This document shows, piece after piece, positions 31,106-51,310 of a DNA stretch of 58,095 nucleotides (positions are counted from its first letter, which is position 1; each line of letters starts with the position of its first letter). Source of the stretch: Phycisphaerales bacterium. Its GTDB lineage: Bacteria > Planctomycetota > Phycisphaerae > Phycisphaerales > UBA1924. The translations under genes were made by a program, and so were the position numbers. The stretch lies in contig JARGPA010000021.1 of NCBI GenBank assembly GCA_029213305.1, forward strand, positions 1-58,095, read 5' to 3'. The notes under the pieces were generated by a model. It ran no database searches. It was not told the DNA's origin and was given only the letters and a program-made list of their open reading frames with translations.

Positions 31106-31983
31106 GACTGAGTTCCTTCCGAAGTTGCCGCAAACGCGTTCTTCTGATAACAGAACCCTTGCGGAATTTGAAGTTGTGTGAAGTCTTCAGTGAGGGATTT
31201 AATTCGTTCGGAGTGCCCGATGAATAGTGTGCCGTCTGCAGCGAGTTGGTTTTCAAACATCGAGACTACATCTCGTTTCATATCGTCATCAAAGTAGATG
31301 AGTACATTTCGACAGAAGATTACATCCCAAGTCCCGTGACGTTTCGCTGCGAGTCGATCTTTGAGATTGTGCTTTTCAAAGTTCACCATCGAGCGGATAG
31401 TTTCATCAAGTATGAACTGGCGCCCATCTTCCTTGAAGTATCTGTTTTTCATCAAGTTCGAAGTAGTGCGGACGGCATAGGAGGTATATGTGCCGCTGTT
31501 TGCGACATCCAACGCTTTCTCTGAGATGTCTGTCCCAAGGATTTCGATATGCCAATCGCTCAAGCGAACTCCGAGGGTTCGATGCAGGAGCATCGCGATT
31601 GTGAATGGTTCTTCTCCTGTGGAACACGCAGCGGACCAAATTCTCAATCGCTTTGTTTTTGCTCGAGCATCGAGGATTTGTGGAAGGATTTGCTTTTCGA
31701 ATACATCGAGCTGGGATTCGTTGCGGAAGAAACTCGTTTCATTTATGGTGATGCGATTAAACATCTCTTGAAACTCTTCCATTTGATAAGGACCCATCGT
31801 GAGATATGCGATGTACTGATCAAAGTCATTCATCTCAAGCTCACTAATACGATGTGACAGCCTGGATTCAATGATGTATTTCTTGGTATCAGGAAAATGG
31901 ATCCCAGATCGATCGTAGATGATCTTGGCCATTGTCTTAAACTGTTGCGGATTCATCGCGATTTTCTTGCTTGTAAAACTCAT
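31102..31983 (-). CDS. cheR: Chemotaxis protein methyltransferase CheR
   Basis: The 293-residue enzyme methylates glutamates of chemoreceptors with SAM to drive adaptation. The N-terminal helical domain has IYDRSGIHFPDTKKYIIESRL. The catalytic domain shows RIWSAACSTGEEPFTIAML, ILGTDISEKAL, NVLIYFDDD and LFIGHSE, all standard CheR motifs. It lies between cheW and cheA and is likely coupled to cheA by a four-base overlap. A later ATG (codon 10) is also possible as start. Confidence 0.93.
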   Translation of the reverse strand: MSFTSKKIAMNPQQFKTMAKIIYDRSGIHFPDTKKYIIESRLSHRISELEMNDFDQYIAYLTMGPYQMEEFQEMFNRITINETSFFRNESQLDVFEKQILPQILDARAKTKRLRIWSAACSTGEEPFTIAMLLHRTLGVRLSDWHIEILGTDISEKALDVANSGTYTSYAVRTTSNLMKNRYFKEDGRQFILDETIRSMVNFEKHNLKDRLAAKRHGTWDVIFCRNVLIYFDDDMKRDVVSMFENQLAADGTLFIGHSERIKSLTEDFTQLQIPQGFCYQKNAFAATSEGTQS

Positions 31984-32018
31984 GATTCGCGTGCTTTCTA
32001 ACTAGAAATTGGATGGGA

Positions 32019-32516
32019 TCAAGCTGCGGCTTTTTTCATACTCGAAATAGTGTTGAGTGATTCCGCTGAGAGTAAGCTGTCAAGATTAAGCAAGATCAAT
32101 AGACGATCATCAAGCTTGGCAACACCAGAGACAAAGCTCGCGTCAACTGAGGTTGTCATCTGTGGGGTGGGTTCAATAATTGATTTATTGATTCTTAAAA
32201 CTTCATGCACAGAATCGACAATAAACCCGAGGGTAGTTCCGTTGAGTTCAACGACAATTATTCGTGAATCATCATCAAGACTTGATGCTTCGAGTCCGAA
32301 CTTTAACCGAAGATCGAGTACAGGAATAATCCGTCCACGAAGGTTGATCACGCCCTCGATTCCCTCAGGGCTCTGGGGGACTTTGGTTAATGAAATCATT
32401 CGATTGATTTCTTGAACACTCAAAATATTCACAGCGAATAGTTCTTCGCCGACGGTGAAACTAACTAGTTGGATTTGAGATTCAGTAGGTTTCGATTGAC
32501 TTGAATGTGCATTCAT
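32019..32516 (-). CDS. cheW: Chemotaxis adaptor CheW
   Basis: A 165-residue CheW: two beta-barrel subdomains with VSFTVGEELFAVNILSVQEINRM, GVINLRGRIIPVLDLRLKFG and TLGFIVDSVHEVLRI. It links CheA to receptors in the signalling array. GGAG stands five bases before ATG 32516; a TTG four codons upstream sits inside that ribosome site and is rejected as start. Adjacent to cheR. Confidence 0.93.
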   Translation of the reverse strand: MNAHSSQSKPTESQIQLVSFTVGEELFAVNILSVQEINRMISLTKVPQSPEGIEGVINLRGRIIPVLDLRLKFGLEASSLDDDSRIIVVELNGTTLGFIVDSVHEVLRINKSIIEPTPQMTTSVDASFVSGVAKLDDRLLILLNLDSLLSAESLNTISSMKKAAA

Positions 32517-32627
32517 ATTGTTCTCCAAGACTGCAGATGTCTCATTCGGTATCGTTCGTAATCCTGTCCCAATTCAGTCCATAATGGGAAACTGCGTCAG
32601 TAGTGGGAAAAAACACACTTTTGGGGA

Positions 32628-33731
32628 CTATGCGGAAATTCTACTTGGAATAGATAATCCGCCTAGATTTGTAATCAAATCACGAATTTGAGTTGGTGAT
32701 AAGACGAGATCCGCTAACTTGTTTTCAATCACTGCTTTGGGCATTCCATACACAACACAAGTGGATGCTGATTGAGCGATGATTTGTCCACCAGTTTTCT
32801 GAATGGATGCAGCACCCTTAGCGCCATCTGCGCCCATACCTGTTAGTTGGATTGCGAGCAGGTTTTCGCCATATATTTCGCTGGCTGCAGAAAACAACAA
32901 ATCAACTGAAGGCCTATATATCACACCTTGGATTTCTTCCGAGAGTTTGGCGATGACTTTTCCGCCTGCAGCACTCGTCGGTTTGAGATGATTCCCGCCC
33001 TGTGCGATGTAAATTCCTGGGTCAGAGATGATGGTGCCGTGCGCTGCGAGTTTTACTTTGCATTTACAGAGTTGATCGAGTCTGTTCGAAAGGCTCTTTG
33101 TAAAGAGCTCAGGCATGTGTTGAGCAACGATAATCGGAACCCGTAGATTTGAAGGGAGCTTTGAAAAAATCTCCTCAAGCACTGGAGGTCCGCCTGTAGA
33201 TGATCCAACAACGACTGCTTTTACCCGTGAGAAATCAATCTCTTTTTCGTTCACATGCTCTTGTATAGATTGATTTTTGGTTTTCGATATCCGAGCTGAG
33301 GGTCTGTGAGTGGTTTGTTGGATTACAGTGCGATGACCTCCGATTGCGTGGAGCTTTGCGAGAAGTTCTTGTTTGAATCCTGCGTCGTTTTTACCCACAG
33401 TTGCAGGGTCTTTTCCGATGACATCAGAAGCTCCGATTCGCATTGCTTTAAATGCTTCTGTTGATCCATCAACTGTTAAAGATGAGCACATGAGAACTGC
33501 GGGTTTGAAATCGTGACATAGAGCTTTAATTTCTCGCAATGCACTCAACCCATCTTTTCGAGGCATTTCTATATCAAGTGTGATCAGGTCAGGTTTGAGG
33601 GAGAGGGCTTTCTCCACGCCGTCTTCGCCGTCTCGTGCAGTTCCAACCACTTCAAACGCAGAGTCTGAAGCAATCATTTCACTGATCATTTTGCGCATAA
33701 ATGCTGAGTCATCGACAACTAGTACTCGCAC
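32628..33731 (-). CDS. cheB: Chemotaxis protein-glutamate methylesterase CheB
   Basis: A 367-residue response-regulator enzyme. The receiver domain has Asp7, Asp8 and phospho-site Asp53 in LITLDIEMPRKDG. The methylesterase domain has Ser178 in GSSTGGPP, His205 in AQHMPELF and the Asp in GMGADGAKG. When phosphorylated by CheA it removes receptor methyl groups and opposes CheR. GTG is the start, with GAAGGG upstream. It is the first gene of the che operon; no convincing promoter was found upstream, where the intergenic region also holds the tRNA-Leu terminator. Confidence 0.93.
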   Translation of the reverse strand: MRVLVVDDSAFMRKMISEMIASDSAFEVVGTARDGEDGVEKALSLKPDLITLDIEMPRKDGLSALREIKALCHDFKPAVLMCSSLTVDGSTEAFKAMRIGASDVIGKDPATVGKNDAGFKQELLAKLHAIGGHRTVIQQTTHRPSARISKTKNQSIQEHVNEKEIDFSRVKAVVVGSSTGGPPVLEEIFSKLPSNLRVPIIVAQHMPELFTKSLSNRLDQLCKCKVKLAAHGTIISDPGIYIAQGGNHLKPTSAAGGKVIAKLSEEIQGVIYRPSVDLLFSAASEIYGENLLAIQLTGMGADGAKGAASIQKTGGQIIAQSASTCVVYGMPKAVIENKLADLVLSPTQIRDLITNLGGLSIPSRISA

Positions 33732-36279: not shown

Positions 36280-37797
36280 TTAACCGACATCTCTGCCTTG
36301 GAACAAGATCACCGCGAGGGATAAGAACACTGTTATTTGACAGAGTCCATAGAAGAAAATCAAGATGACATGTGATCCAGGGATCGGTTGATTCTGTGTC
36401 ACGGCGTCGAGGAGCCAGAAGGCTTGCATGTTGGGGACAAGACTCCAGACGACAAGAGGTGCAGGGTGGATAACCGTCGGCTGAAGGAAGATCGAGTCTC
36501 CAGCCATCGGAGGCCGAGCAATAGATAGTGTTTCGCGACCAACTTGCTGGATCACGAGTCGGTTATCGTTGACAGCAGTGATAACGAGCGCGGGTTCTGC
36601 TCTTGCGTCTTTCTCGGGAACGATTGATTTGTCGAAGGGTTCAAAGGTTGGGGTGATGAGCCCAACTCCACTTGGAGATGAACCGTAGTAAAAGGAATCG
36701 CCGAGTTTGAGTTCAACAGTAGGGGGGCCAAGAAGTGTGATAATCAGACGAGCGCCCGGCTTGCGAAGCATCACCTCTTGGTACGCGTCATCATCGCGGA
36801 GTTCTGAATCATCAAGTGCAAGGAGTTCTTTTAGGGACACATATCCGCGAGGATCAAGTTTACTTTCGATGAACTCTTCGACTGTCTTCCTATTGCGCTT
36901 TGCAGCAAGGTCCCAAACATAGTCTTTGTGGAAGTCATATAGGTCGAGATCCAAAGGAGATGCTGCGATGGATACTTGCCCCACCCGTTCATTCTCGTAG
37001 ATTCCTCGGCCGAACCAATAGTTTGAAAGCAATCCAACTAGGAAAACCGCAGTACAGATCGTAATCGTTAGTACCTGTCCCAATCGAGTCGAAATCGCAG
37101 TCGCGAGTGCTGTCATCACGAACAACGCCATTGCAAGACACACGCATGCAAGCATGATCTGTGGTTTGATGTTCTCAACAGGAGACATCATCGTCCAATC
37201 TTCATGGATGAAGAGTGTTACGATGTATCCGATCCAGATCATGGGTAACAACAAGAGCGACGCTGCTTGTCCGAATGACCAGCCGTAGAAGTAGTTGCCG
37301 ATTGCACCCAGAGCGATTGATCCAAAGATCGCTATTACGCTCATCAAGATAACTGGGAGATTGGGTTCTTGAGCAGCAGTCGAGAGAATCCCATGTCGAA
37401 TTCCCATCAACAAGAATGCGATCATAATCCCGATCGCCACGAACATTGCGCCTGAGATCCCAAGGAACTTACCCAGGATAATGCTTGTTCGTCCGACTGG
37501 CTTTGAAACAACTGTAAGTACTGTCTTGTTCTCGATTTCTCTTGAGATCGCAGCGGTCGAAATAAACGCGGCAAGGATAATACCGAGCAGGAAGACCCCA
37601 CCCATCGAGACATCGAGGAGCATCTTGTTGTCACCGGATACTTCGCCTGGGACATTCTTGGCGCCCATTGTAAATCCGACGATCCAGGTATTAATCAACT
37701 GGATAAAGGCAGCAAGGAGCAGCATGATGAAAAAGACAGGCTGTCTAATGCTCTCTTTAAACGCGTTTCGTGCAATTGTGAGAATTGGTGTGATCAT
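36280..37797 (-). CDS. ABC-2 type transporter permease
   Basis: The 505-residue membrane protein has one N-terminal helix (about 15-40), then a cluster of helices at 65-260, a soluble extracytoplasmic domain (about 270-450) and a last helix near 480. The segment AAISREIENKTVLTVVSKPVGRTSIILGKFLG is the cytoplasmic coupling region found in Gld/Nos-type exporters. The same pattern occurs in the permease at 44305-46254. No ATPase gene is beside it; it may share the ATPase at 42983-44308. Start ATG 37797 has no clear ribosome site. Confidence 0.85.
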   Translation of the reverse strand: MITPILTIARNAFKESIRQPVFFIMLLLAAFIQLINTWIVGFTMGAKNVPGEVSGDNKMLLDVSMGGVFLLGIILAAFISTAAISREIENKTVLTVVSKPVGRTSIILGKFLGISGAMFVAIGIMIAFLLMGIRHGILSTAAQEPNLPVILMSVIAIFGSIALGAIGNYFYGWSFGQAASLLLLPMIWIGYIVTLFIHEDWTMMSPVENIKPQIMLACVCLAMALFVMTALATAISTRLGQVLTITICTAVFLVGLLSNYWFGRGIYENERVGQVSIAASPLDLDLYDFHKDYVWDLAAKRNRKTVEEFIESKLDPRGYVSLKELLALDDSELRDDDAYQEVMLRKPGARLIITLLGPPTVELKLGDSFYYGSSPSGVGLITPTFEPFDKSIVPEKDARAEPALVITAVNDNRLVIQQVGRETLSIARPPMAGDSIFLQPTVIHPAPLVVWSLVPNMQAFWLLDAVTQNQPIPGSHVILIFFYGLCQITVFLSLAVILFQGRDVG

Positions 37798-38269: not shown

Positions 38270-40387
38270 ATGAATCAGGGCGACTATCTGACTTATCGCA
38301 AGGCATCATCGATCAGCTTGATCGGTCTCGTGCTCCAATTGCTCATTACGCTTGTAGTGTTCATATATAGTAAATATGCGAACGATTATGCAGCGGCCGG
38401 TGCGGCTAGATTCCTCGCGACAGGACTCATCGCATGGGGTTTGTTGTTGTTGGTATTCGATCTGCATCGACGCGAACGTATCGAAGCGATGGAAACTGAG
38501 CAACTCGCAGTTTCAGGAGCATCTGCTGCAAGCGCGTTTGATTCCGTTGGAGACAATCTCCGAGTTGCATCTCGTAGACTCGCATTTGTCTACAAATGGA
38601 TTATGCCCGCCGGCGGGATCATCATCGGTGCGATCAATATTTGGATCGGTACTGGGCGCTTGAGAGCAGTTACCGCTGACGCAGAGTTCATCGAACGGTA
38701 TCAACAGATCCATGTTGGATGGGCACTCGCAATCGGTATCGGTATGGCCGTCGTTGGGTTTGTCTTTGCTCGTTTTGTTTCGGGTATGGGCAAAATTCCT
38801 GCATGGTCAAATCTCCGTGCAGGTTCAGCAATTTCAGTCGCCGCGGCGCTCGTTGGAATTCTGCTCGCAGTTGGGGGATTCTTAGATCTCTCGTTGGGAA
38901 TCAATACTGTTCAGGTTTGGAACTTATTCCTGATCCCAATTGGGATGATTGCATTTGGTATCGAGATTGGTCTCAATCTTCTACTTGATGTGTATCGTCC
39001 TCGTAAACCAGGTGAAGTACCTCGGCCGTCATTTGACTCACGATTCCTAGGGCTTTTAGCGGCTCCAGATCGAATTGCAGAAAATGTCGGCGAAGCTGTG
39101 AACTACCAGTTTGGTATTGATGTCACTTCGTCATGGTTCTATCAGCTTCTTTCCAAGTGGATTATGGTTTTCGTGGTTGCTGGAGTTGGTGTAGGTTGGT
39201 TGATGACATCGCTTGTTGTTGTTGAACCCCATGAGCGAGGATTGATCATTACTAATGGAGTTGTCAGTTCTCCATTGCACAGCTTTGGTGAGAGCGGGGA
39301 AGGCGATATTGGTCCTGGACTTCATATCAAACTCCCTTGGCCATTCTCAAAGTATGAAACTCCAGTCGTCAAGTTAAAGCGAGGACAAACAGAACTACGC
39401 ACAACCACGGGTGTACGAGTACTCCAGTTAGCGTCGAATCCTCCAACACCAGGCCGTGGTCCAATCCTTTGGACAGAGAATCATTCTGGGACTGAACTAC
39501 TCAACATTGTTCAGCCGGACGCTGCTGAAGATGGAAGTACAGATCAGTCTTCATCGGTTGCTCAATTATCACTCTTGGCAATTGAAGTTCCTGTTCAATA
39601 TGTAATCCGAAATGTCAAACTCTTTGATGAGTTTGCTGCTCCTGGTCAGCGCGAGCAGATGCTGTTACAACTTGGTAGACGAGTCGTAACACAGTATTTG
39701 GGTGAACTTTCAATCAGCGATGTGCTTGCAAATCATCGGATTTCCATGCCTGTCGAACTCAAGAGCAGATTAGAAAAAGCGTACGGCGAACTCAATGACG
39801 GGCAAGGGACTGGTATTGAGATCCTCTTTGTAGGGATCAACGGCGTACATCCACCTACAAAGGTTGCACCTTCGTTTGAACGAGTTATTATCGCGAAACA
39901 GAATCGTGAATCACTCATCGAAGATGCAAAGAAAACTCAGATCACTACCCTTGCTGAGATTGCAGGGAGTGTTGAGCTTGCGAGTGAGATCAATGACAAA
40001 TTGATCACACTCGTCGATTTGCGAAGAGAAGTTGGGCGCGATGCCGCTCAATACATCGAAGCAGAACTCGAAGTTCAGAGACTGATTGAGAAAACCGGTG
40101 GAGAAGCAGGGGAAATGATCCTTTCAGCGAGTGCGAATCGTTGGGTGCGTCATATGTCCGAGCGTGGCCGCGCGAGCTTGTTGCAAGGTCAACAAGAAGC
40201 GTATCTTGCTGCTCCTTCCCTCTATCAAAGCAATATGTATTTTGATGCCTTGCTCGAAGCGATGAAAGAAGCTCGTGTGTATTTGACACCTGCTGATCTC
40301 GCATCGCTCAAGGTTCGTCTCGAGCTGCAAGATAAGCAGGTCGGGACACAAGTGTTCGACGCCGAAGCGGGCGCCGAGTTACAGTAA
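38270..40387 (+). CDS. Polytopic SPFH/band 7 (HflK-like) membrane protein
   Basis: The 705-residue product has about six hydrophobic helices in the first 240 residues, a further helix near 295-315, and then an SPFH domain starting VVVEPHERGLIITNG and including GPGLHIKLPWPFSKYETP and EVPVQYVIRNV. A helical stalk-like region follows with IEDAKKTQITTLAEIAGS. HflK in other bacteria is about 400 residues with one membrane helix, so the N-terminal membrane module is extra. No FtsH is nearby. First gene of a six-gene operon; ATG 38270 has only a weak ribosome site. Confidence 0.8.
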   Translation: MNQGDYLTYRKASSISLIGLVLQLLITLVVFIYSKYANDYAAAGAARFLATGLIAWGLLLLVFDLHRRERIEAMETEQLAVSGASAASAFDSVGDNLRVASRRLAFVYKWIMPAGGIIIGAINIWIGTGRLRAVTADAEFIERYQQIHVGWALAIGIGMAVVGFVFARFVSGMGKIPAWSNLRAGSAISVAAALVGILLAVGGFLDLSLGINTVQVWNLFLIPIGMIAFGIEIGLNLLLDVYRPRKPGEVPRPSFDSRFLGLLAAPDRIAENVGEAVNYQFGIDVTSSWFYQLLSKWIMVFVVAGVGVGWLMTSLVVVEPHERGLIITNGVVSSPLHSFGESGEGDIGPGLHIKLPWPFSKYETPVVKLKRGQTELRTTTGVRVLQLASNPPTPGRGPILWTENHSGTELLNIVQPDAAEDGSTDQSSSVAQLSLLAIEVPVQYVIRNVKLFDEFAAPGQREQMLLQLGRRVVTQYLGELSISDVLANHRISMPVELKSRLEKAYGELNDGQGTGIEILFVGINGVHPPTKVAPSFERVIIAKQNRESLIEDAKKTQITTLAEIAGSVELASEINDKLITLVDLRREVGRDAAQYIEAELEVQRLIEKTGGEAGEMILSASANRWVRHMSERGRASLLQGQQEAYLAAPSLYQSNMYFDALLEAMKEARVYLTPADLASLKVRLELQDKQVGTQVFDAEAGAELQ

Positions 40388-40478
40388 AAATGCTCACAGG
40401 AAAATGATTTCTTGATGAGATTGGTAATCGCCTTAACAGGCAAACGCACCCGGACAATCGGGTATTGGAGAATGAGTC

Positions 40479-41471
40479 GTGTTCAAGCTGAAAAAGCAAA
40501 CGATTCCGCTATTTGCAATCCTCTTCTTGGGAGTGATCGTGCTCTTTAGCGCGAGCTTCACGGTTCGCTTTACGGAAACAGCCGTCAAAACAAGATTTGG
40601 TTCTGCGAATGAGAACTCAATTATTACTGAGCCTGGATTCAAATGGAAGTTGCCTTATCCATTCGAGAGTGTCACAAAGTATGACACCCGGATTCGGATG
40701 GTGGAGACTCGCTCAGAGACCGTGCAGACTGCAGATGATTTTCAGATCATCGTCGAGTCGTACCTGAGTTATAAAGTTGCAGATCCACTCAAGTTCTTCA
40801 GAAGCTTCTCCAATGCAGGTGAACGAGCAATCGATCACTTCAACAAAGCTGAGAATGATGTTCTTCGTGATCTCCTACGAAGTGCGCTGGGTGAAACAAG
40901 TACATATAAGATGAGTGATCTCTTTGCATCACAGAGTGGCGCTTCAGTCATTCCATTGCTTGAGCAACAACTCTTTGATCTTCTTGTTAGCGGCGGAAAC
41001 GGCGGACAACCACTCTCCGATTACGGAATTCTGATTACTTCAGTCGGAATCGATCGCATTGTTTTACCTGAAGAAACAACTTCTGCAGTGATTAATCGAA
41101 TGGGTGCAAACCGAGATCGTCTCGCAGAACGATACGAGTCTGAAGGGCGATCCCAAGCTCGCGCTATCCGCGCTGAAGCAATCAGTAATGCGGATCGAAT
41201 CCGTGCATTTGCTCAGCGCCGTGCAGATGAAATCCTTGCAAAGGGTGAAGCAGAAGCTGCGCCATACCTTGCGCAACAAAACATCAACCCAGATTTGGCA
41301 GTATTCATTCAGAACATCAAACTGATGCGTGAAGCAATGTCGAAGAAGTTCACACTGATCTTCTCTACATCTGATTATGGAATGCAGCTCTTTGATCCTG
41401 ATATTCTCAAACAATCCCAGGGTAATCTACCAATTCCTAGCCAGGATCCTGATATGGAATCGGAGGGATAA
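40479..41471 (+). CDS. SPFH/band 7 protein, HflC-like
   Basis: A 330-residue protein with one N-terminal helix (9-29), then an SPFH domain with ETAVKTRFGSA and EPGFKWKLPYPFESVTKYDTRI. A long coiled region follows with EGRSQARAIRAEAISNADRIRAFAQRRADEIL, the region of HflC that contacts HflK. Length and layout match HflC. Translation begins at GTG 40479 with GGAG eight bases before. Probably pairs with one or both neighbouring SPFH proteins in a ring on the outer face of the inner membrane. Confidence 0.88.
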   Translation: MFKLKKQTIPLFAILFLGVIVLFSASFTVRFTETAVKTRFGSANENSIITEPGFKWKLPYPFESVTKYDTRIRMVETRSETVQTADDFQIIVESYLSYKVADPLKFFRSFSNAGERAIDHFNKAENDVLRDLLRSALGETSTYKMSDLFASQSGASVIPLLEQQLFDLLVSGGNGGQPLSDYGILITSVGIDRIVLPEETTSAVINRMGANRDRLAERYESEGRSQARAIRAEAISNADRIRAFAQRRADEILAKGEAEAAPYLAQQNINPDLAVFIQNIKLMREAMSKKFTLIFSTSDYGMQLFDPDILKQSQGNLPIPSQDPDMESEG

Positions 41472-41474
41472 TCG

Positions 41475-42980
41475 ATGACAGATGAACCTCAAGATCAAGG
41501 TCCAGAACAATCAACTCCAAAGAATGAAGCTCCGCAAAGCGCAGGGCAAGATGTTGATTTAGCAAGCGGTGATTCACTCGTTAGTGATCAAGCACCAGAT
41601 GATGAGTTGATTTCAACTCGCGCTGCTTCAGTTCGATTCAATCGAACGAGCAGTACGGGGAAAGTATCAAACAAAGATCGGATGGATGCAGCGAACCAGT
41701 CACTCGCGGATGCACTTCGCATTACATACGGGTTCTTGCAATTCGGTATGATCATTCTGCTCATCCTCTTTGTGTTTAGTGGATTCCAGAAGATTAATGA
41801 AGGCGAGCAAGGGATCGCGGTTTTCCTTGGGAAACCATCTCGTGCGCAGCTTGAACCCGGCGCTCATCTTACTTGGCCATACCCAATCGGCGAGCTCATC
41901 CGCGTCGGCGGAGGAACAGTCGAAGTACCACTTGCTCGGATATTCATGCCGAATGCTCCAGGTGCAAACAGTGAAGATTCATTGCTCGATCTTCCAATTG
42001 ATCGTTTCAGTGGCGCTGGTAGATTGAATCCACTCCGCGATGGTTCGTTGATTACCGCAGATCTCAATATCGCTCACGCACAGTGGACAGTGAATTATCA
42101 TCGCTCGAATCACCTTCGTTTCGTGGAGAACATTCTTCCTGAACAGGAGATCAGTGTCATCGTTATCGCAGTCCGTCGTGGTGTCGTCAGGACAATGGCA
42201 GAGACTCCGATTGATGATCTCTTAAAGAAGTCAGCCGAAACGATGGCTGCGCAAGTCAAAGAGATTGCTCAGGAAACACTTGATGGACTCGAATCAGGAA
42301 TCACAATTGATCGGGTCGTTCTTGTACGCAAAACACCTCCTTTAGCGTTGCTTGATCAGTTTGCTTCTGTACAGTCTGCTGCACAGAATGCAGGCAAAGA
42401 ACGCGAAGATGCACTCCTCCAACAAGATCAATGGCTCAACGAAGTTGCAGGCAGATCTGCGGATATCCTCATTGAGATGATCAATGAATACGAGCGATTG
42501 ATTGAGCTGAACCTCTCAGATGAAGCTGCGACCTTGTTAGAAACTATCGATATCGCTCTCTCAGGTGGTGAAGTTGAATACAACGGAGTCAATACCTCAG
42601 CTTTGGTATCGGGTGAAGTCTCAGAGATCCTCAATGCTGCCCAATCAAAGGCATCATCGAGAGTTTCACAAGCAATTGCTGATCTTGAACAGTTTAATGC
42701 AAAGCAAGCTCAATTCGAAGCTAATCCAATCCTCATGGTTGTACGAGATTGGTCATCTGCAATGACTGCATTCTTGGAAAAAGATTTCGTTACTACGATG
42801 TATCTGCCTGAGAATGTTGATGTCGAGTTGTTGATCAACAATGACCCAGACATCGAACGCGAACGAGATCGAATCCGTAAGAGAGAAGAATCTCTCAAAG
42901 CAGTGCAGCAACGACGCGAAGATTTCAAGAACGATATCTTTAAGTCTAGACGAGGAATTACTGAGGAAGAGGGCCCATAA
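41475..42980 (+). CDS. Third SPFH/band 7 protein, HflK-like
   Basis: The 501-residue protein has an acidic N-terminal region (1-70), a membrane helix near 90-110 and an SPFH domain with KINEGEQGIAVFLGKPSRAQLEPGAHLTWPYPIGELI and AQWTVNYHRSNHLRF. An extended coiled-coil region (about 240-460) comes after it, ending in a basic charged tail. The layout is that of HflK. GGAGG eight bases upstream and a three-base gap after the HflC-like gene support cotranslation. The start of the ABC ATPase lies two bases after the stop. Confidence 0.85.
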   Translation: MTDEPQDQGPEQSTPKNEAPQSAGQDVDLASGDSLVSDQAPDDELISTRAASVRFNRTSSTGKVSNKDRMDAANQSLADALRITYGFLQFGMIILLILFVFSGFQKINEGEQGIAVFLGKPSRAQLEPGAHLTWPYPIGELIRVGGGTVEVPLARIFMPNAPGANSEDSLLDLPIDRFSGAGRLNPLRDGSLITADLNIAHAQWTVNYHRSNHLRFVENILPEQEISVIVIAVRRGVVRTMAETPIDDLLKKSAETMAAQVKEIAQETLDGLESGITIDRVVLVRKTPPLALLDQFASVQSAAQNAGKEREDALLQQDQWLNEVAGRSADILIEMINEYERLIELNLSDEAATLLETIDIALSGGEVEYNGVNTSALVSGEVSEILNAAQSKASSRVSQAIADLEQFNAKQAQFEANPILMVVRDWSSAMTAFLEKDFVTTMYLPENVDVELLINNDPDIERERDRIRKREESLKAVQQRREDFKNDIFKSRRGITEEEGP

Positions 42981-42982
42981 AC

Positions 42983-44308
42983 ATGAGCGATCCTGCAACA
43001 TCCACGGAACTCCATCCATCCTCAGACTCAAGCAATGCCAGAGTTGACAACTCTCGCAAAGCAGTCGTGGGTTGTCAGCAACTCTCAAAGGTGTTCAAAG
43101 ATTTTTGGATGCGGGATCGAGCAAGGGCCGTCGACAAGCTTGATCTAGTAATTTACGAGCATGAGATCTTTGGACTCTTGGGTCCCAACGGTTCAGGGAA
43201 GAGCACGATTATCAAGATGATTCTAGGTTTGCTCAAACCAACCAACGGCCGAGTCGCAGTTTTTGGAAAACCCCCAACTGATGTCGCGATCAAAAAGCGG
43301 ATCGGGTATCTTCCAGAAGAGAGTTATCTCTACCCGTTCTTGAATGCTCGTGAAACTTTGGATTACTATGGGAAATTATTCGGTCTCGATAGTAAAACGC
43401 GTCAGGGTCGAATTGATGAGCTCCTTCACATGGTTGGACTTGAGCATGCTCAGTTCCGTCCAGTACGCGAATATTCCAAGGGTATGCAGCGCCGTATTGG
43501 TCTAGCGCAAGCACTGATCAATGATCCTGATCTATTGATTCTTGATGAACCAACAACGGGTCTAGATCCGATCGGGACTCGACAAGTAAAAGATCTGATT
43601 ATCGAACTGGGCCGACGCGGGAAGACCATTATTCTTTCAAGTCATCTCCTGACTGATGTTGAAGATGTGGTCGATCGGATGGCCATCCTATATGGCGGTA
43701 AAATCCGCGACGAGGGTACTTGTGATAGTCTCCTCTCAAGTAAAGAACGTACTCTCATCGAGGCGGATGAACTGGATGATCAAACTATCGCTGAGATTGA
43801 TGAGATTATTCGTCGTCGTAGCAGCGGGGCAAAGTCGATCAGGACTGTCTCTGCACCCAAACAAAGACTCGAAGATATCTTCATGGGTATCGTTGAGCAA
43901 GCTCAGAACGAGAAAACTGCTACTTCCGGTGCAATGCACGGCGGCGCTACCGCGGCCTTCTTGATGGCTTCAGAAGCCGCTGGAGATCAAGGAGATGATC
44001 TCATCTCGTCACTCATTGGAGGATCTGAAAACGAACCTCCAGAGTCTGATGAGACAATCGCGTCAGGAACAAGCGAGCAGAATGAAGTCAAAGTGGAAAC
44101 CGAAGAAGGATCTGTTGAAGATGGGTCGCAACTCATCGGTGATCTCTTGGGCGACAATGATGATGACGTCGCGATCTCTGAAAGCGAAGATTCAGTAAGT
44201 AAAACTCCAGTCGACGAACAACTCGACTTGGGCGTAATCGGTTCGCTTACAGATGACGGCGACGAATCCACTGATTCCGACTCGAATGACAAGGAGTCGA
44301 ATAAGTGA
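42983..44308 (+). CDS. ABC transporter ATP-binding protein with long acidic tail
   Basis: The 441-residue protein carries a complete ATPase: Walker A GPNGSGKST (67-75), Q-loop region PEESYLYPFL, signature YSKGM (164-168), Walker B LLILDEP (184-190) and H-loop SSHLL. It resembles the GldA/NosF/CcmA type that works with ABC-2 permeases. Past about residue 320 comes a disordered tail of some 120 residues dominated by Glu, Asp and Ser, which is unusual for the family. GTG of the permease gene overlaps its stop by four bases. Confidence 0.92.
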   Translation: MSDPATSTELHPSSDSSNARVDNSRKAVVGCQQLSKVFKDFWMRDRARAVDKLDLVIYEHEIFGLLGPNGSGKSTIIKMILGLLKPTNGRVAVFGKPPTDVAIKKRIGYLPEESYLYPFLNARETLDYYGKLFGLDSKTRQGRIDELLHMVGLEHAQFRPVREYSKGMQRRIGLAQALINDPDLLILDEPTTGLDPIGTRQVKDLIIELGRRGKTIILSSHLLTDVEDVVDRMAILYGGKIRDEGTCDSLLSSKERTLIEADELDDQTIAEIDEIIRRRSSGAKSIRTVSAPKQRLEDIFMGIVEQAQNEKTATSGAMHGGATAAFLMASEAAGDQGDDLISSLIGGSENEPPESDETIASGTSEQNEVKVETEEGSVEDGSQLIGDLLGDNDDDVAISESEDSVSKTPVDEQLDLGVIGSLTDDGDESTDSDSNDKESNK

Positions 44309-46254
44309 CTATCCGCGAACGCATCGCAAAGCTGAATCATCTCCAACAGTTGAAATCATTCAAAGTGATCGCAAGTGTGATCATTGCGATTGTCGCGTCT
44401 CTTCTGATTGGGTCCGCGATTATAAAGAACACGACTGAAAACCCTGTGTTCGAACAACGAATCAATGAAATGCCGGCCACAGTAACGAATTTTGCGGGCG
44501 AGGAAATCGAAAACCCTCAGCTTGCTCAGGTTCGACAAATCCAACAACTACTCAATAAAGCAAAGCCCGGAACACTGATGGCTGTGGGAACCGCGGCTGT
44601 TTCGATCATGCTGATTTTGGTTGTATGGATGGGATTGGGATTGGTTTATCCAGCGCTAGTCGTCGTTGCAGTTGGATTATTCTATTTTATGCAAGGGAGT
44701 TCTCTTGAAGTCTTTGCATCAATCGCAGTTGGAATGATCATCTTGACGCTGAGTTTTATGGTCCTCTTGCGAGGGTCTTCGATCGCGTTGAGTTCTTCTC
44801 GTCCTATTCCCGCAATCGCACGCAATGTGCTCGCTGAAGCGGTCCGAATGAAGATATCCCTGATATTCATTATCATCTTGTTCTTTGTTCTCGCGGCGAT
44901 GCCGATGCTGATGAATGAAGACCAGGCGCTTCGATATCGTGTTCAGTTATTCTTGAAGTATGCTTCAGGGTTTACATTCTTATTCGTTGCTTTGCTTGTT
45001 GTGTTCTTTGGCGCAGCGACAGTAACGTACGAACAACGCGAAAAGGTCATTTGGCAAACAATGACGAAACCCGTGGCCGCCTGGCAGTATCTTCTGGGTA
45101 AGTGGTTGGGTGTTGTCACTCTTGCAGCGGTTCTCCTCACTGTCTCTGCGACAGGGGTTTTCCTGTTTACTGAGTATCTTCGGAATCAACCCGCGATCGG
45201 GGAGGTCGCTGCTTATCAAGCAGGGGATGGTTCAGATATTACTGAGGATCGTTTGAATCTTGAGACTCAGGTACTGACATCTCGAGAATCTGTTCGGCCT
45301 TCTTTACCGTTCTCGATCAACGATCCAATCTTCGAAAATGCATTGGAAGCAAGAATTCGACAAGAGACGATTTCCAATCCTGGGTATAACCCAGATCCTA
45401 GTGAAAGAGCGGCGCTCAAAAATAAGATCTTCCAAGATGAAATAACGGAATACCTTTCGATTGATCCGAACGCTGAGAAATATGAAGAGTTTGTTTTTTA
45501 CGGGTTAGGGAAAGCAAAGAAACAAAATCTACCTTTATCTCTTCGATATAAAATCGATGCAGAAGGAAATCGGCCGGACATTTTCTATATTCTGACTTTC
45601 GCGTTTGATGACGGAACCGTTCTCCCGCCGCGAAGAACCGGATTGGGTTTTTCACATACGATGACGCTCTCTCCTGAGTTCATCAATTCCAACGGTGAGG
45701 TCCGCTTACAGATCATCAACGGGCAGTTGCTTGCAGCTGCAGACGGAAACTTTGATGTTCAAACAAACATCAATACATTTACAATCCCTCCTGATGGGCT
45801 TGAAATCTCATACACAGTGAGCGGATATCGTTCAAACTTCGTTCGAGTCTTTATCGTGTTGTGGGTAAAACTCGCGATGCTTGCAATGCTCGCAGTATGG
45901 GCCTCGACCTTTGCAAGTTTCCCAGTTGCTTGTTTGATTGCCGGCGGGTTATTCTTCATCGGGCAGATGTCTGGATTCGTCCAAGATGCACTACCTGGTT
46001 GGGGAAAAGTGAACAACAGTGGGGATCCTTCGATCTATCGAACATTAATCTATTACTTTGCAGATTGGATCAGTTCGATCTTCAGGGTTTATAACGATCT
46101 GCGTCCAACATCTCGACTCGCAGATGGTGAAGTACTCTCGTGGAGTTCAGTAACACGCGGAATGATGGCGCTGGGCACGATCTGTACTGTGTTTTATTTG
46201 CTTGGTGTGCTTATTTTCCGTCGCCGACAGTTGGCAATCTACTCAGGTAATTAA
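44305..46254 (+). CDS. ABC-2 type transporter permease with large extracytoplasmic domain
   Basis: The 649-residue protein has membrane helices near 20-40, 90-165 (several), 190-215, 225-250 and 260-285. A large soluble domain (about 290-510) comes next, and then four helices to the end. The coupling segment TYEQREKVIWQTMTKPVAAWQYLLGKWLGV is like that in the permease at 36280-37797. Translation starts at GTG 44305 in the overlap with the ATPase gene. It probably forms the membrane part of an exporter with that ATPase; the cargo is unknown. Confidence 0.88.
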   Translation: MTIRERIAKLNHLQQLKSFKVIASVIIAIVASLLIGSAIIKNTTENPVFEQRINEMPATVTNFAGEEIENPQLAQVRQIQQLLNKAKPGTLMAVGTAAVSIMLILVVWMGLGLVYPALVVVAVGLFYFMQGSSLEVFASIAVGMIILTLSFMVLLRGSSIALSSSRPIPAIARNVLAEAVRMKISLIFIIILFFVLAAMPMLMNEDQALRYRVQLFLKYASGFTFLFVALLVVFFGAATVTYEQREKVIWQTMTKPVAAWQYLLGKWLGVVTLAAVLLTVSATGVFLFTEYLRNQPAIGEVAAYQAGDGSDITEDRLNLETQVLTSRESVRPSLPFSINDPIFENALEARIRQETISNPGYNPDPSERAALKNKIFQDEITEYLSIDPNAEKYEEFVFYGLGKAKKQNLPLSLRYKIDAEGNRPDIFYILTFAFDDGTVLPPRRTGLGFSHTMTLSPEFINSNGEVRLQIINGQLLAAADGNFDVQTNINTFTIPPDGLEISYTVSGYRSNFVRVFIVLWVKLAMLAMLAVWASTFASFPVACLIAGGLFFIGQMSGFVQDALPGWGKVNNSGDPSIYRTLIYYFADWISSIFRVYNDLRPTSRLADGEVLSWSSVTRGMMALGTICTVFYLLGVLIFRRRQLAIYSGN

Positions 46255-46274
46255 CTCGAAAGGAGTGTGAAGAC

Positions 46275-48239
46275 ATGTCGCATGGAATTCGTGTTCGTCT
46301 CTTGGCGCTTCTGTTCTTGTTCGTAGGGCTTGTTGGTTCTGGGTACTTTGGTACCGCGATCACTTCCTCTGCGGGCACCCATGAACTGACTTACACTGAT
46401 CGCGCAGAAGATGGGGATCCACCGATGGTGGCGCTGGGTGTCGCACTCGGAGCTTTGCGAGGAATTTTCGTTAATGTTCTGTGGATCCGTGCAACAAGCG
46501 CGAAGGAAGACGGGCAGTTCTACGAAGCAATCGATCTCGCAGAATGGATTACTCGACTCCAACCACGATTACCTCAGGTATGGACATTCCACGCATGGAA
46601 TATGGCCTACAACATCTCGGTAACAACTCAAACCCCTCAAGAACGGTGGGGCTGGGTGAATGCGGGACTTCGACTTCTTCGCAATGAAGGTATCCGTGCA
46701 AATCCAAATGACATGCATATGCACAAAGAGCTTGCATGGATTTTCTTACACAAGATATCTGGGTACACGGATGATGCAAACCAGTATTACAAGAAACAGT
46801 TTGCATATGAATGGCAAAACATTCTTGGTAGAAAACCAGTAATCGATGCTGAACATCGTGATCGTCCGAGTGTAATCCAACAATATGTTGATTGGATTCA
46901 ACCGATTGTTGATGCGCCTGCGACAAGAACCGGACTCGCACAAGCAAATCCAAAGGCTGAGGAAATCGCGCAAGCATATGAAAATGGAATGGGTGAGGCT
47001 CTCGGAGTCCGATTCCTAGAGCGATACACATTACAACAAGAAATGACTTTAGCTGGAAAACTCACGACAGTGAAGAAAACAGCTGGTCCTAGAACACAAG
47101 CGTTCATGCTTCTCAGTGAACAGTTCACAGATGAGCAAGCTTGGACTGATTTGGTTAATCATGTTCGCAAACGGGTTCTTGAGGATGAGTACTTCATGGA
47201 ACCAATCCGCATGATTCAACAAATGCGGAAGTTCGGACCCATTGATTATCGACTTCCTTCTGCCCACTCACTCTACTGGGGTTCACGAGGTACCGATGTA
47301 GGACGAATGACCGTGAACGAGCATAATGCGGATTCTCTGGACTTTGTGAATGCATATCGCTTGGTCATGCAATCCGTTCAAGATCTCTGGCGACACGGAG
47401 ATATGTACTTCAACTACCTCGATGTACACGAGCAACGAGTTGCGTATTACCAAGGTGTCCCAAATGCATATTTCGTTCCATCCTACGGCGGGATGCTCAA
47501 CGAAATCGTTCAAAACTCAGGCCTCTTTGAAGCTGATCGTCGACCATATCGTCAGTTCTCAGCAGGTTACGAGAACTTCTTGAGAGATGCAGTTCGGTTC
47601 TTCTATCGCAGAGGTGATCTTGCTCGTGCTGAATATTGGTACGACATTCTCCGTAACTGGAAAGGCCAGAACATGAACGACACCACTCGTATTGACGAGA
47701 TGGCGTTGTCGCTCAAGGACTTTGCAGACAAGCAGTTATATGACTCGCTCGGTTCACCCCAAGTGGCAGTATCCGAAGTCTACGGCGCTCTTCAAGGAGC
47801 ACTGTTCTCTGGATTGATGATCGGCGATATCGATGTCTTCAGCGCTCAATGGGAGTATGCTCGCAAGACACATGCGTACTACTTCTCTGAGCAGTTCCGT
47901 GTTGTAGTTGCATCTTCGGGTGGAGCAAGAATGGAGTTCATGGATCGCGACTTCGCGTTCCTTGCAGGGAATCTCTTTGTGAATATTCTCTCAACTCTGG
48001 GTCCCGCAGAAGCAGAGTTACTCTATGGAAATGCCCCTGAGGATCTCAGACAGTATGCTTACGACGCGTTAGTTGTGAGATATAAGGGATACATTGATAA
48101 CCTCGCTGCCAATGGTGAATCTGACTCATTCGAAATATTGTTCCCTGAACCTGCTCGGATGGAAGAGTTCCGTGTGATGTATGAACGCAAACGGACTGCT
48201 CGTGAAAATCAGGGTGACGAAGGTGCGAGAAAGAACTAG
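46275..48239 (+). CDS. Large membrane-anchored hypothetical protein of the SPFH-ABC operon
   Basis: A 654-residue protein with one N-terminal helix (about 8-28) and a long soluble part that should lie outside the inner membrane. It is rich in Trp, Tyr and aromatic helices, with TPR-like stretches such as ATSAKEDGQFYEAIDLAEWITRLQP. No enzyme motif is recognised. ATG follows AAGGAG at nine bases; the gap to the permease is 20 bases. It is the last gene of the operon and may be an envelope partner of the exporter. Confidence 0.8.
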   Translation: MSHGIRVRLLALLFLFVGLVGSGYFGTAITSSAGTHELTYTDRAEDGDPPMVALGVALGALRGIFVNVLWIRATSAKEDGQFYEAIDLAEWITRLQPRLPQVWTFHAWNMAYNISVTTQTPQERWGWVNAGLRLLRNEGIRANPNDMHMHKELAWIFLHKISGYTDDANQYYKKQFAYEWQNILGRKPVIDAEHRDRPSVIQQYVDWIQPIVDAPATRTGLAQANPKAEEIAQAYENGMGEALGVRFLERYTLQQEMTLAGKLTTVKKTAGPRTQAFMLLSEQFTDEQAWTDLVNHVRKRVLEDEYFMEPIRMIQQMRKFGPIDYRLPSAHSLYWGSRGTDVGRMTVNEHNADSLDFVNAYRLVMQSVQDLWRHGDMYFNYLDVHEQRVAYYQGVPNAYFVPSYGGMLNEIVQNSGLFEADRRPYRQFSAGYENFLRDAVRFFYRRGDLARAEYWYDILRNWKGQNMNDTTRIDEMALSLKDFADKQLYDSLGSPQVAVSEVYGALQGALFSGLMIGDIDVFSAQWEYARKTHAYYFSEQFRVVVASSGGARMEFMDRDFAFLAGNLFVNILSTLGPAEAELLYGNAPEDLRQYAYDALVVRYKGYIDNLAANGESDSFEILFPEPARMEEFRVMYERKRTARENQGDEGARKN

Positions 48240-48277: not shown

Positions 48278-48310
48278 AAAAGAGCCGGAACATCAAGTTC
48301 CGGCTCTTTT
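48278..48310. terminator. Bidirectional terminator between the SPFH-ABC operon and purC
   Basis: Arms AAAAGAGCCGGAAC and GTTCCGGCTCTTTT pair perfectly over 14 bases around a five-base loop, with T's on both strands. It ends both convergent units. Confidence 0.92.
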
Positions 48311-49493: not shown

Positions 49494-49576
49494 TCCCATA
49501 TCCTGTATGTAGATTATTGAACTGATCCTAAACCGATCATGGCTTCGGATGATGATTGAGGAGTGAACCACACAAG

Positions 49577-51310
49577 ATGCTGCGATTTGTTGCCCCTGAA
49601 AACTCCTCTGCGATCCCTCATCAGATCCTCCAAGGCGCCTATCTCATAGGACCTGACTCTGTTCCAATTGCAGGGGAAGTCATTCTTGAGAAAGGGTTTA
49701 TTCGATGTGAAAAAGGGACTCGAGAGGCTGCTTCTCTTGCGTTGCAGTTTGATCTCGACGATTCAACACTTCGATCATTGCATTCTGATCTAAATATCAG
49801 TGGACCAATCATCGACGATATCCAACTCCGGCCGATGGGCACCTGGGTTTTGCAGACTTGTTTGCTTCATGATCGAAAACGACCATATGTACTTGAGCTT
49901 GAACTTGCGCGGCATCGAATCATGCTGTTTTTGACCAAACTTGAGGATTGGCAAGCGTTCGATATCGCACCCGACTCACAAGTGATGAGATTGTTTGAGC
50001 AAGCTCGAAACGCATTCACTAAGGGGCTCGTTGCTTCAAGCTCGCATGAGAACGGTATTGAGAAGGCAGCGAAATACGGCCTGTTGGCGCTCTGGATCTC
50101 GCTCGAAGTTTCAGAACGACTCAGCATACTCCAAACCAGACGAGACTTCACAGATCGGATGAACGGGAAACTCTATCTCTCTGTCTCAGAAGACGGCGGG
50201 ATCAACAAAAGAGCAATGCCAGTACTGCATCCAACACGAGGCGGAGTCGTCCTCCCGACCCGTCCTGCGATTGGAGCATCAGTATCCCCCGGTGTACTCA
50301 ATCCACAAACCAAAGCGGCTGCGATCGAATCCTGTGACTTCATATCGCTTCCAATGAGATGGGTTGAACTCGAACCATTGGAAGGTGAGTATGCATACAC
50401 CCCAACAGACCAATGGATCGAATGGGCAATACGAACTGCAAAACTACCAGTTGTTGCAGGACCAGTGATTGATTTTCGGCCTCAGAGTGTGCCTGAATGG
50501 CTCTATATCTGGGAGAATGATTACGATACTCTTCGTGAACTTGTGTATGAACATCTCAAAGCAACGGTAACTCGTTATCGTCGCACGATCAGCCGATGGA
50601 CAGTTTGTTCAGGCCTCCATTGCGGTGAACATTTCAAACTCGATTTTCAACAAATGATCGATCTCACACGGATTTGTGTTCTGGTTGTCAGGAAACTTCA
50701 TCCGCGAGCAAAGGTCCAAGTCGAAATCATCGAACCCTGGGGCGAATACCACACGAGTGATCGACGATCACTCCCTCCGGTTCTCTATGCGGAGATGTTG
50801 ACGCAATCTGGAATTCCGATTGATTCATTCTCTCTTCGCGTACAGATGGGATCATTCGAATCGGGTCAACAAACACGAGATCTGATGGCCTTCAGTTCAA
50901 TGCTTGATCAATATTCGATGCTCGATCGTCCGATCGCAATCTCTGCGTTTGGCGCTCCCTCTGGACCTTTGGTTTCAAGTGATAATGATCAACATAAGTA
51001 TCCAAACTCAGGTCAATGGCGTCAACCATGGACAGAACAAGGACAAGCAGATTGGATGTCTGCATACGGAGCTGTTGCTTTGTCGAAACCATATGTCGAG
51101 TCCATCTGTTGGCACGAACTCGCAGATCCTAATGGCGCAACCGAAATGCGAACTGGTGGACTTCTCGATCGACGATTCGAACAACGAGAATCATACCAAC
51201 GCATGATCGAACTCCGACATGCAATACAAAGCGGGAAGTTGCCCAATCGGTTGATGGATGATGAGTTCCTTTCACCCAACTCTACGATGTCTTCATCTTT
51301 AAGCAAGTAA
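49577..51310 (+). CDS. Glycoside hydrolase family 10-like protein
   Basis: The 577-residue protein has an N-terminal beta-rich domain (about 1-190) followed by a TIM-barrel-like domain. GH10-like features are SLPMRWVELEPLEGEYAYTPTDQWIEWA, the strand RRTISRWTVCSGLHCGEHFKL, and ICWHELADP near the end. In xylanases the fourth and seventh strands carry catalytic Glu in NE and TELD contexts; these contexts are altered here, so xylanase activity is doubtful. No signal peptide. ATG 49577 is chosen; GAGGAG lies 13 bases upstream, and a TTG at 49556 is possible. Confidence 0.7.
   Translation: MLRFVAPENSSAIPHQILQGAYLIGPDSVPIAGEVILEKGFIRCEKGTREAASLALQFDLDDSTLRSLHSDLNISGPIIDDIQLRPMGTWVLQTCLLHDRKRPYVLELELARHRIMLFLTKLEDWQAFDIAPDSQVMRLFEQARNAFTKGLVASSSHENGIEKAAKYGLLALWISLEVSERLSILQTRRDFTDRMNGKLYLSVSEDGGINKRAMPVLHPTRGGVVLPTRPAIGASVSPGVLNPQTKAAAIESCDFISLPMRWVELEPLEGEYAYTPTDQWIEWAIRTAKLPVVAGPVIDFRPQSVPEWLYIWENDYDTLRELVYEHLKATVTRYRRTISRWTVCSGLHCGEHFKLDFQQMIDLTRICVLVVRKLHPRAKVQVEIIEPWGEYHTSDRRSLPPVLYAEMLTQSGIPIDSFSLRVQMGSFESGQQTRDLMAFSSMLDQYSMLDRPIAISAFGAPSGPLVSSDNDQHKYPNSGQWRQPWTEQGQADWMSAYGAVALSKPYVESICWHELADPNGATEMRTGGLLDRRFEQRESYQRMIELRHAIQSGKLPNRLMDDEFLSPNSTMSSSLSK

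Follow-up and report, generated by a model that had tools for sequence, protein, structure and literature searches.

The window analysed here is a stretch of 58,095 nucleotides from a Phycisphaerales bacterium of the Planctomycetota (GenBank assembly GCA_029213305.1, contig JARGPA010000021.1), and this study concerns one locus in it, where three genes for SPFH proteins (K1, C and K2, hereafter the triple) stand in a row with the genes of an ABC ATPase (A), an ABC-2 permease (M) and a sixth protein (T). A first-pass annotation of the sequence had described six plus-strand genes in this order and had given the spacing after the first gene; the open reading frame (ORF) coordinates agree with both, and the gaps from K1 through T are 91, 3, 2, -4 and 20 bases (Table 1). 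The six ORFs of the proposed six-gene operon are thus real, but the locus has a seventh gene, Mp, which is divergent from the six-gene run. A strong two-way hairpin closes the locus 3' of T, and no RNA element was detected by Rfam at the gathering score between 36000 and 49500. The Pfam scan covered the six operon genes and four neighbours; for Mp and the purC neighbour, the scanned sequence began at the second residue. Newly recognised in this study are the predicted cation diffusion facilitator (CDF)-like domain of K1, the seventh gene, a P-type ATPase gene in the loci of relatives, and fusions of exporters to HflK.

Table 1. Genes and features of the locus, in window coordinates (aa, amino acids; TM, transmembrane segment)
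Feature	Position	Strand	Size and membrane segments	Description	Best family score
K1	38270-40387	+	705 aa	HflK-type SPFH protein; six TM at the N-terminus form a putative CDF-like domain (about residues 6-247), followed by a conserved linker, TM7, the SPFH domain and a coiled coil	
C	40479-41471	+	330 aa, one TM	HflC-type SPFH protein	Band_7 83.8 bits
K2	41475-42980	+	501 aa, one TM	Second HflK-type SPFH protein, long N-terminus	TIGR01933 74.7 bits
A	42983-44308	+	441 aa	NosF/ABCA-like ABC ATPase, acidic C-terminal tail	PF00005 113.8 bits
M	44305-46254	+	649 aa, about 9 TM (hydropathy)	ABC-2 permease	PF12679 34 bits
T	46275-48239	+	654 aa, N-terminal TM anchor	All-helical TPR-like repeat domain (predicted)	
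Mp	36280-37797	-	505 aa, about 8 TM (hydropathy)	Second ABC-2 (NosY-type) permease	PF12679 48.5 bits
Hairpin	48278-48310	both	14 pairs	Terminator-like, between T and convergent purC	

The assignment of K1, C and K2 to the HflK/HflC group rests on several matches of unequal strength. Pfam Band_7 was found above its cut-off of 23.6 bits in K1 (32 bits) and C, and K2 had no Pfam match at E<=0.01. The NCBIfam hflK model TIGR01933 matched both K1 (72.3 bits) and K2 below its cut-off of 159.4, and the hflC model TIGR01932 matched C at 113 bits, below its cut-off of 134.4, so that none of the three reached the curated HflK/HflC cut-offs. Among solved structures, C matched HflC (7vhp_G, E 1.1e-23) and K2 matched HflK (7vhq_E, E 1.2e-4), and an SPFH fold of the HflK type following one TM was found. 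The second and third SPFH proteins are therefore HflC-like and HflK-like as the first-pass annotation had suggested; that the first is also HflK-like was not foreseen. The solved relatives closest in sequence, and closest in fold to the SPFH part of K1, come from the HflK/HflC-FtsH cage of E. coli (PDB 7vhp, 7wi3, 9cz2), which shares HflK- and HflC-type SPFH proteins and one TM before the SPFH domain. It differs in that there are three subunits here instead of two, one of them with a six-TM domain, and in that the gene partners are an ABC exporter and not FtsH. The N-terminus of K2 is rich in histidine (at least 8 in the first 70 residues) in 10 of 60 relatives only, so His-rich tails were rejected as a general feature, and the K2 of the window is not His-rich.

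The extra multi-helix membrane module that had been noticed in the first SPFH protein proved to consist of six TM, and its CDF-like fold had not been anticipated. Structure prediction suggests that this module has the six-TM fold of the CDF family (YiiP/ZnT) without the metal ligands. The metal ligands of CDF proteins form an HxxxD-type motif in TM2 and TM5, and both termini of these proteins lie inside the cell. The latter arrangement fits K1, since six helices followed by TM7 would then deliver the SPFH domain to the periplasm. K1 of the window differs from YiiP/ZnT in that it is fused to an SPFH domain, has no HxxxD-type ligands in TM2 or TM5 and has no match to the CDF family PF01545, either at E<=5 with the whole protein or at E<=10 with its first 310 residues. 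PF01545 was matched in 2 of 22 relatives, with a best E of 0.012.

The exporter genes are more readily classified. The earlier calls of an ABC ATPase and an ABC-2 permease hold, with A matching PF00005 and M scoring above the PF12679 cut-off of 27.2 bits, and together they have the composition of a NosFY-type ABC-2 exporter. A matched ABCA3 (E 3.2e-68) and NosF (7o0y_B, E 3e-52) in the PDB, and the family profile of M matched NosY (7o0y_D, E 6.5e-7); NosF and NosY are the closest prokaryotic solved structures to the A and M families among the matches listed. The GldA gliding ABC model TIGR03522 scored 193.2 bits, below its cut-off of 402.6. Compared to NosDFY (PDB 7o0y), there are two different permeases here, M has a large loop domain between TM segments (about residues 290-515), the partners are SPFH proteins, and no NosD was found among the six operon genes and four neighbours scanned. 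The sixth gene had been called a large envelope protein. A known envelope family was rejected because neither Pfam nor NCBIfam gave a match to T at E<=0.01. The model of T shows instead an all-helical protein with a membrane anchor and a TPR-like appearance; fold searches returned only a likeness to helical repeats (Foldseek best E 8.1e-3).

T was found in 144 of the 150 genomes of the class, and the stretch around it was fetched for 80 of these: 71 of the 95 with a T match of E 1e-26 or better (strong T) and 9 of the 49 whose T match was weaker (weak T). This sample is uneven and leans to close relatives, and gene order in it was called with one profile per gene. The order K1-C-K2-A-M-T was retained in 62 of the 80 loci (two counts gave this number, from sets that differ by one locus), and a P-type ATPase gene lies between K2 and A in 13 of the 62. 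Contig ends truncate four of the remaining 18 (K2 only in L075, C-K2 in L098, part of K1 in L106, and L107, which reads P-A-M-T, P being the P-type ATPase gene, with the remainder of its operon on L202). Five others have T without the rest, and Mp-K1-C-K2-A lies on another contig or far away (L197-L200, L204), accompanied by M in four of them. The triple or its visible part was present in 72 of the 80 genomes, and 71 of these 72 have at least one ABC gene alongside. The scattering of the six genes among related genomes, which would have told against the first-pass annotation, was therefore not seen, and chance neighbourhood was rejected as an explanation.

The triple, whether whole, cut or split off, follows T closely where the T match is strong (71 of 71 genomes) and was found in 1 of 9 weak-T genomes. 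Six extra weak-T genomes of one family (f8), chosen for an HflC that was close to T or had a good score, likewise read K1-C-K2-A-M-T (L206-L208, L211-L213). HflC matches occur in 127 of the 150 class genomes; of the eight sampled genomes without the triple, five have no HflC at E<=1e-5, one has a classic HflK-HflC pair (G005, L209) and two have weak matches (G006, G048). Mp was found in 57 of the 80 loci, divergent in all but L054, and some stretches end before it could appear. It was not detected in L112, whose stretch reaches far enough, nor in the six f8 genomes, and was rejected as a fixed member. A second set of 80 named loci, the best 80 of 108 found with K1, has titles that are mostly Phycisphaerales, Phycisphaeraceae, Phycisphaerae or Planctomycetota; 64 of them read Mp'-K1-C-K2-A-M-T exactly, Mp is divergent in 78, and many of those without the full order are short contigs.

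Beyond the class, the T profile matched 199 of the 294 phylum genomes, and 20 T loci were picked from other classes. The triple was present in 9 of the 20, and all 9 also have a P-type ATPase, which comes first in three (P-Mp'-K1-C-K2-A-M-T) and lies between K2 and A in six. Five of the latter read Mp-K1-C-K2-P-A-M-T, with Mp first and codirectional, and one more has no Mp in its stretch. A-M-T, often with Mp, is thus the wider core, accompanied in many lineages by the triple and the P-type ATPase. Within the class, the ATPase is in or beside 32 of the 80 loci, including three of another family (f2) of the window's taxonomic order (L052, L054, L055), and it was seen in none of the eight loci (L037-L044) fetched from the family to which the window belongs and in none of the 80 named loci. 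Most operon-linked ATPases have the motifs DKTGT and CPC; CPC is altered in three of the nine from other classes (TPC, CPS and none). The nearest P-type ATPase in the window's own genome is on contig C3 (L217) and scores 665.7 bits, compared to 848-962 for those nine, and it is possibly the gene that left the locus. This protein also has a His-rich N-terminus.

Physical fusion of HflK to exporters was found in relatives. Twenty-five HflK/HflC loci were annotated, 20 of them picked from CDF-HflK protein matches (long frames preferred) and five found earlier. Twelve are triples of a fused HflK, an HflC and an HflK, in which the fused part is a CDF protein (4), an ArsP_1 permease (6) or a P-type ATPase (2), all above Pfam cut-offs; a further 12 have no fused transporter, and L256, a 764-aa HflK-like ORF, was not counted among the fusions, since its N-terminal part appears to come from a frame with a wrong start. 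The CDF-HflK fusions carry the HxxxD-type motif, and a P-type ATPase gene follows in 3 of the 4 CDF triples. The P-type ATPase fusions (PF00122 and PF00702 with the SPFH family PF01145) are single ORFs of 1006 aa (L214:5467-8484) and 993 aa (L253:5231-8209), each followed by HflC- and HflK-like frames. The ArsP_1-type permeases (PF03773) are fused to the HflK that heads the triple in L252, L254, L255, L264, L215 and L257, the last of which is cut short, and some have a long His-rich loop. In a protein collection, 119 of the 120 best relatives (of 498 at E<=1e-20) contained both PF01545 and PF01145, and their source names include Planctomycetes, Kiritimatiellaeota, Lentisphaeria, Omnitrophota, Chloroflexota and Entotheonellia. 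CDF-HflK matches at E<=1e-30 occur in 39 of the 294 phylum genomes, with the CDF part covered only in G309 and G186 among the matches listed, and the class sample gave two further fusions (G015, G020); the idea that such fusions are common in the phylum was therefore rejected. In an SPFH tree of 92 rows with a midpoint root, K1 and K2 form separate clades (99/83 and 99/95), and the fused HflKs sit among classic and second HflKs in another clade (42 rows, 100/99). This topology suggests either a very ancient joining of HflK to exporters or more than one such event. The tree gives no support for K1 having descended from the CDF-HflK fusions, and the CDF part of K1 may derive from an independent fusion or from an old shared one.

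We put at roughly one in two the probability that K1, C and K2 form an HflK/C-type cage in which a NosFY-like ABC exporter (A, M and Mp) is corralled together with T; the cage, its contact with the exporter and the substrate are what we infer from the data above. The three SPFH proteins would co-assemble into one mixed membrane ring with their SPFH domains in the periplasm, the side that they face in E. coli HflK/C according to a 2009 survey. A would drive an M/Mp pair as the full exporter, whose exit would open into the chamber of the ring, where the membrane-anchored T may hold the substrate or assembly partners, and the six helices of K1 would anchor the cage at the exporter patch. Because the relatives are metal exporters, the system probably served originally to export metal or to supply it to periplasmic proteins. 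In the window's lineage K1 has lost its metal sites and the locus showed no P-type ATPase, so that the present substrate may no longer be a metal. The stomatin dome, which lies on the cytosolic face of the membrane, offers a precedent. In its published description (PMC12407830), the dome encloses AQP1 and UT-B and is likened by the authors to HflK/C around FtsH, which shows that transporters can be enclosed by an SPFH ring. The proposed principle of an SPFH ring fencing a transporter is shared, though the dome is a human homo-oligomer without a fused transporter or an operon.

Several observations weigh against this reading. A-M-T occurs without the triple in 9 of the 20 other-class loci (three with Mp), T stands alone in two more, and A-M-T lacks the triple in 8 of the 80 class stretches, all from the nine weak-T genomes; an exporter that occurs in other lineages without the triple does not need a cage. 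The triple lies apart from A-M-T and without Mp in one class genome (G131; L058, L201), and T was not found in two named loci whose stretches continue (L144, L156). The Foldseek matches that underlie the CDF-like assignment are weak (best E 3.8e-3), K1 and the CDF-HflK fusions stand in different clades of the SPFH tree, both HxxxD-type sites were found in none of 181 K1 rows, one of which is the window's own protein entry (TM2 site in 0, TM5 site in 2), and the ATPase on contig C3 has SPS where CPC is usual. Finally, no HflK/HflC other than K1, C and K2 was found in the genome (G000; 38 contigs, 92.3% complete), and their client may therefore be FtsH. As the first-pass annotation had said, FtsH is absent near the operon; the one copy found is a 681-aa ORF on contig C7. 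A third Band_7 match in the genome, on contig C34 (L002, sequence partly masked), looks flotillin-like and adjoins an NfeD-like ORF.

FtsH is the best-described content of bacterial SPFH cages, and E. coli ftsH is also encoded apart from hflKC. An unlikely alternative is that K1-C-K2 is no more than the HflK/HflC of this lineage, forming a cage for the FtsH whose gene lies elsewhere, and that adjacency to the ABC genes reflects shared regulation, for instance in envelope stress. The sub-threshold matches of all three proteins to the HflK/HflC models and their being the only such proteins found in a genome that also has FtsH favour it, but FtsH is not encoded near the locus, three genomes carry both this operon and a classic HflK-HflC pair (G018 with L268 and L073, G028 with L262 and L069, G072 with L269 and L056), the gene link of triple and exporter is tight, and other triples contain an HflK physically fused to an exporter. 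The proposal of the first-pass annotation, that an SPFH cage serves this exporter instead of FtsH, accordingly gains from the HflK fusions to three kinds of exporter and from the published stomatin dome, and loses from the genome's single HflK/C set and the loci with A-M-T alone. That A, M, Mp and T are an independent envelope exporter, with the SPFH genes merely co-operonic and functionally unrelated, is suggested by those same loci and by the spread of T through the phylum with the triple in only 9 of 20 other-class loci; we regard it as improbable, given the 71 of 72 triples with ABC genes in the class sample and the retention of Mp, A and M by the triple in 4 of the 6 cases where T or A-M-T lies apart.

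A further possibility, doubtful on present evidence and overlapping with the caged ABC exporter preferred here, is a metal-handling patch in which copper or zinc would be exported, or delivered for periplasmic metalloenzymes, by the CDF-like K1, the NosFY-like ABC system and the P-type ATPase acting together, with the SPFH ring as a scaffold. The frequent ATPase gene (32 of 80 class loci, 9 of 9 other-class triple loci) with its usual DKTGT and CPC, the 10 His-rich K2 N-termini, the nearness to NosF and NosY and the fusion of metal exporters to HflK in relatives all speak for metal. The fetched own-family loci and the named loci do not show the ATPase (0 of 8 and 0 of 80), although L052, L054 and L055 of the same order do; likewise, both ligand sites are absent in all 181 K1 rows, the window's K2 is not His-rich, CPC is altered in 3 of the 9 other-class ATPases, and no metalloenzyme gene is among the neighbours scanned.

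Elsewhere in the window, CheA-, CheR- and CheB-like genes lie in a row on the minus strand upstream of the operon (28775-33731), and a 584-aa ORF at 49556-51310 has a sub-threshold match to glycosyl hydrolase family 10 (20.6 bits, cut-off 22.1).

The first-pass annotation knew of no characterised system of this composition, and a full-text literature search found neither an SPFH-transporter fusion nor this operon described among the matches listed. SPFH-NfeD operons (PMC2636767) share the presence of SPFH genes in conserved operons, but there is no NfeD among the genes scanned here, and the words transporter, cation and ATPase are absent from the main text of that survey.

The data presented in this study may, tentatively, be extended to a bacterial class of hard-wired "caged exporters": three-subunit HflK-HflC-HflK shells whose first HflK is welded to a CDF protein, a P-type ATPase or an ArsP permease, and in the Planctomycetota to a CDF-like domain that would recruit an ABC exporter, so that the substrate would exit into a private periplasmic SPFH chamber. 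The function of SPFH cages is an open question, and the genomes compared here name their likely content by gene fusion and gene order, with likely contents that span unrelated exporter families. This gives testable bacterial models of SPFH rings as transporter fences, an idea raised by the human stomatin structures, and suggests that a chamber at the periplasmic face of an exporter is a way of handling a substrate such as a toxic or scarce metal.

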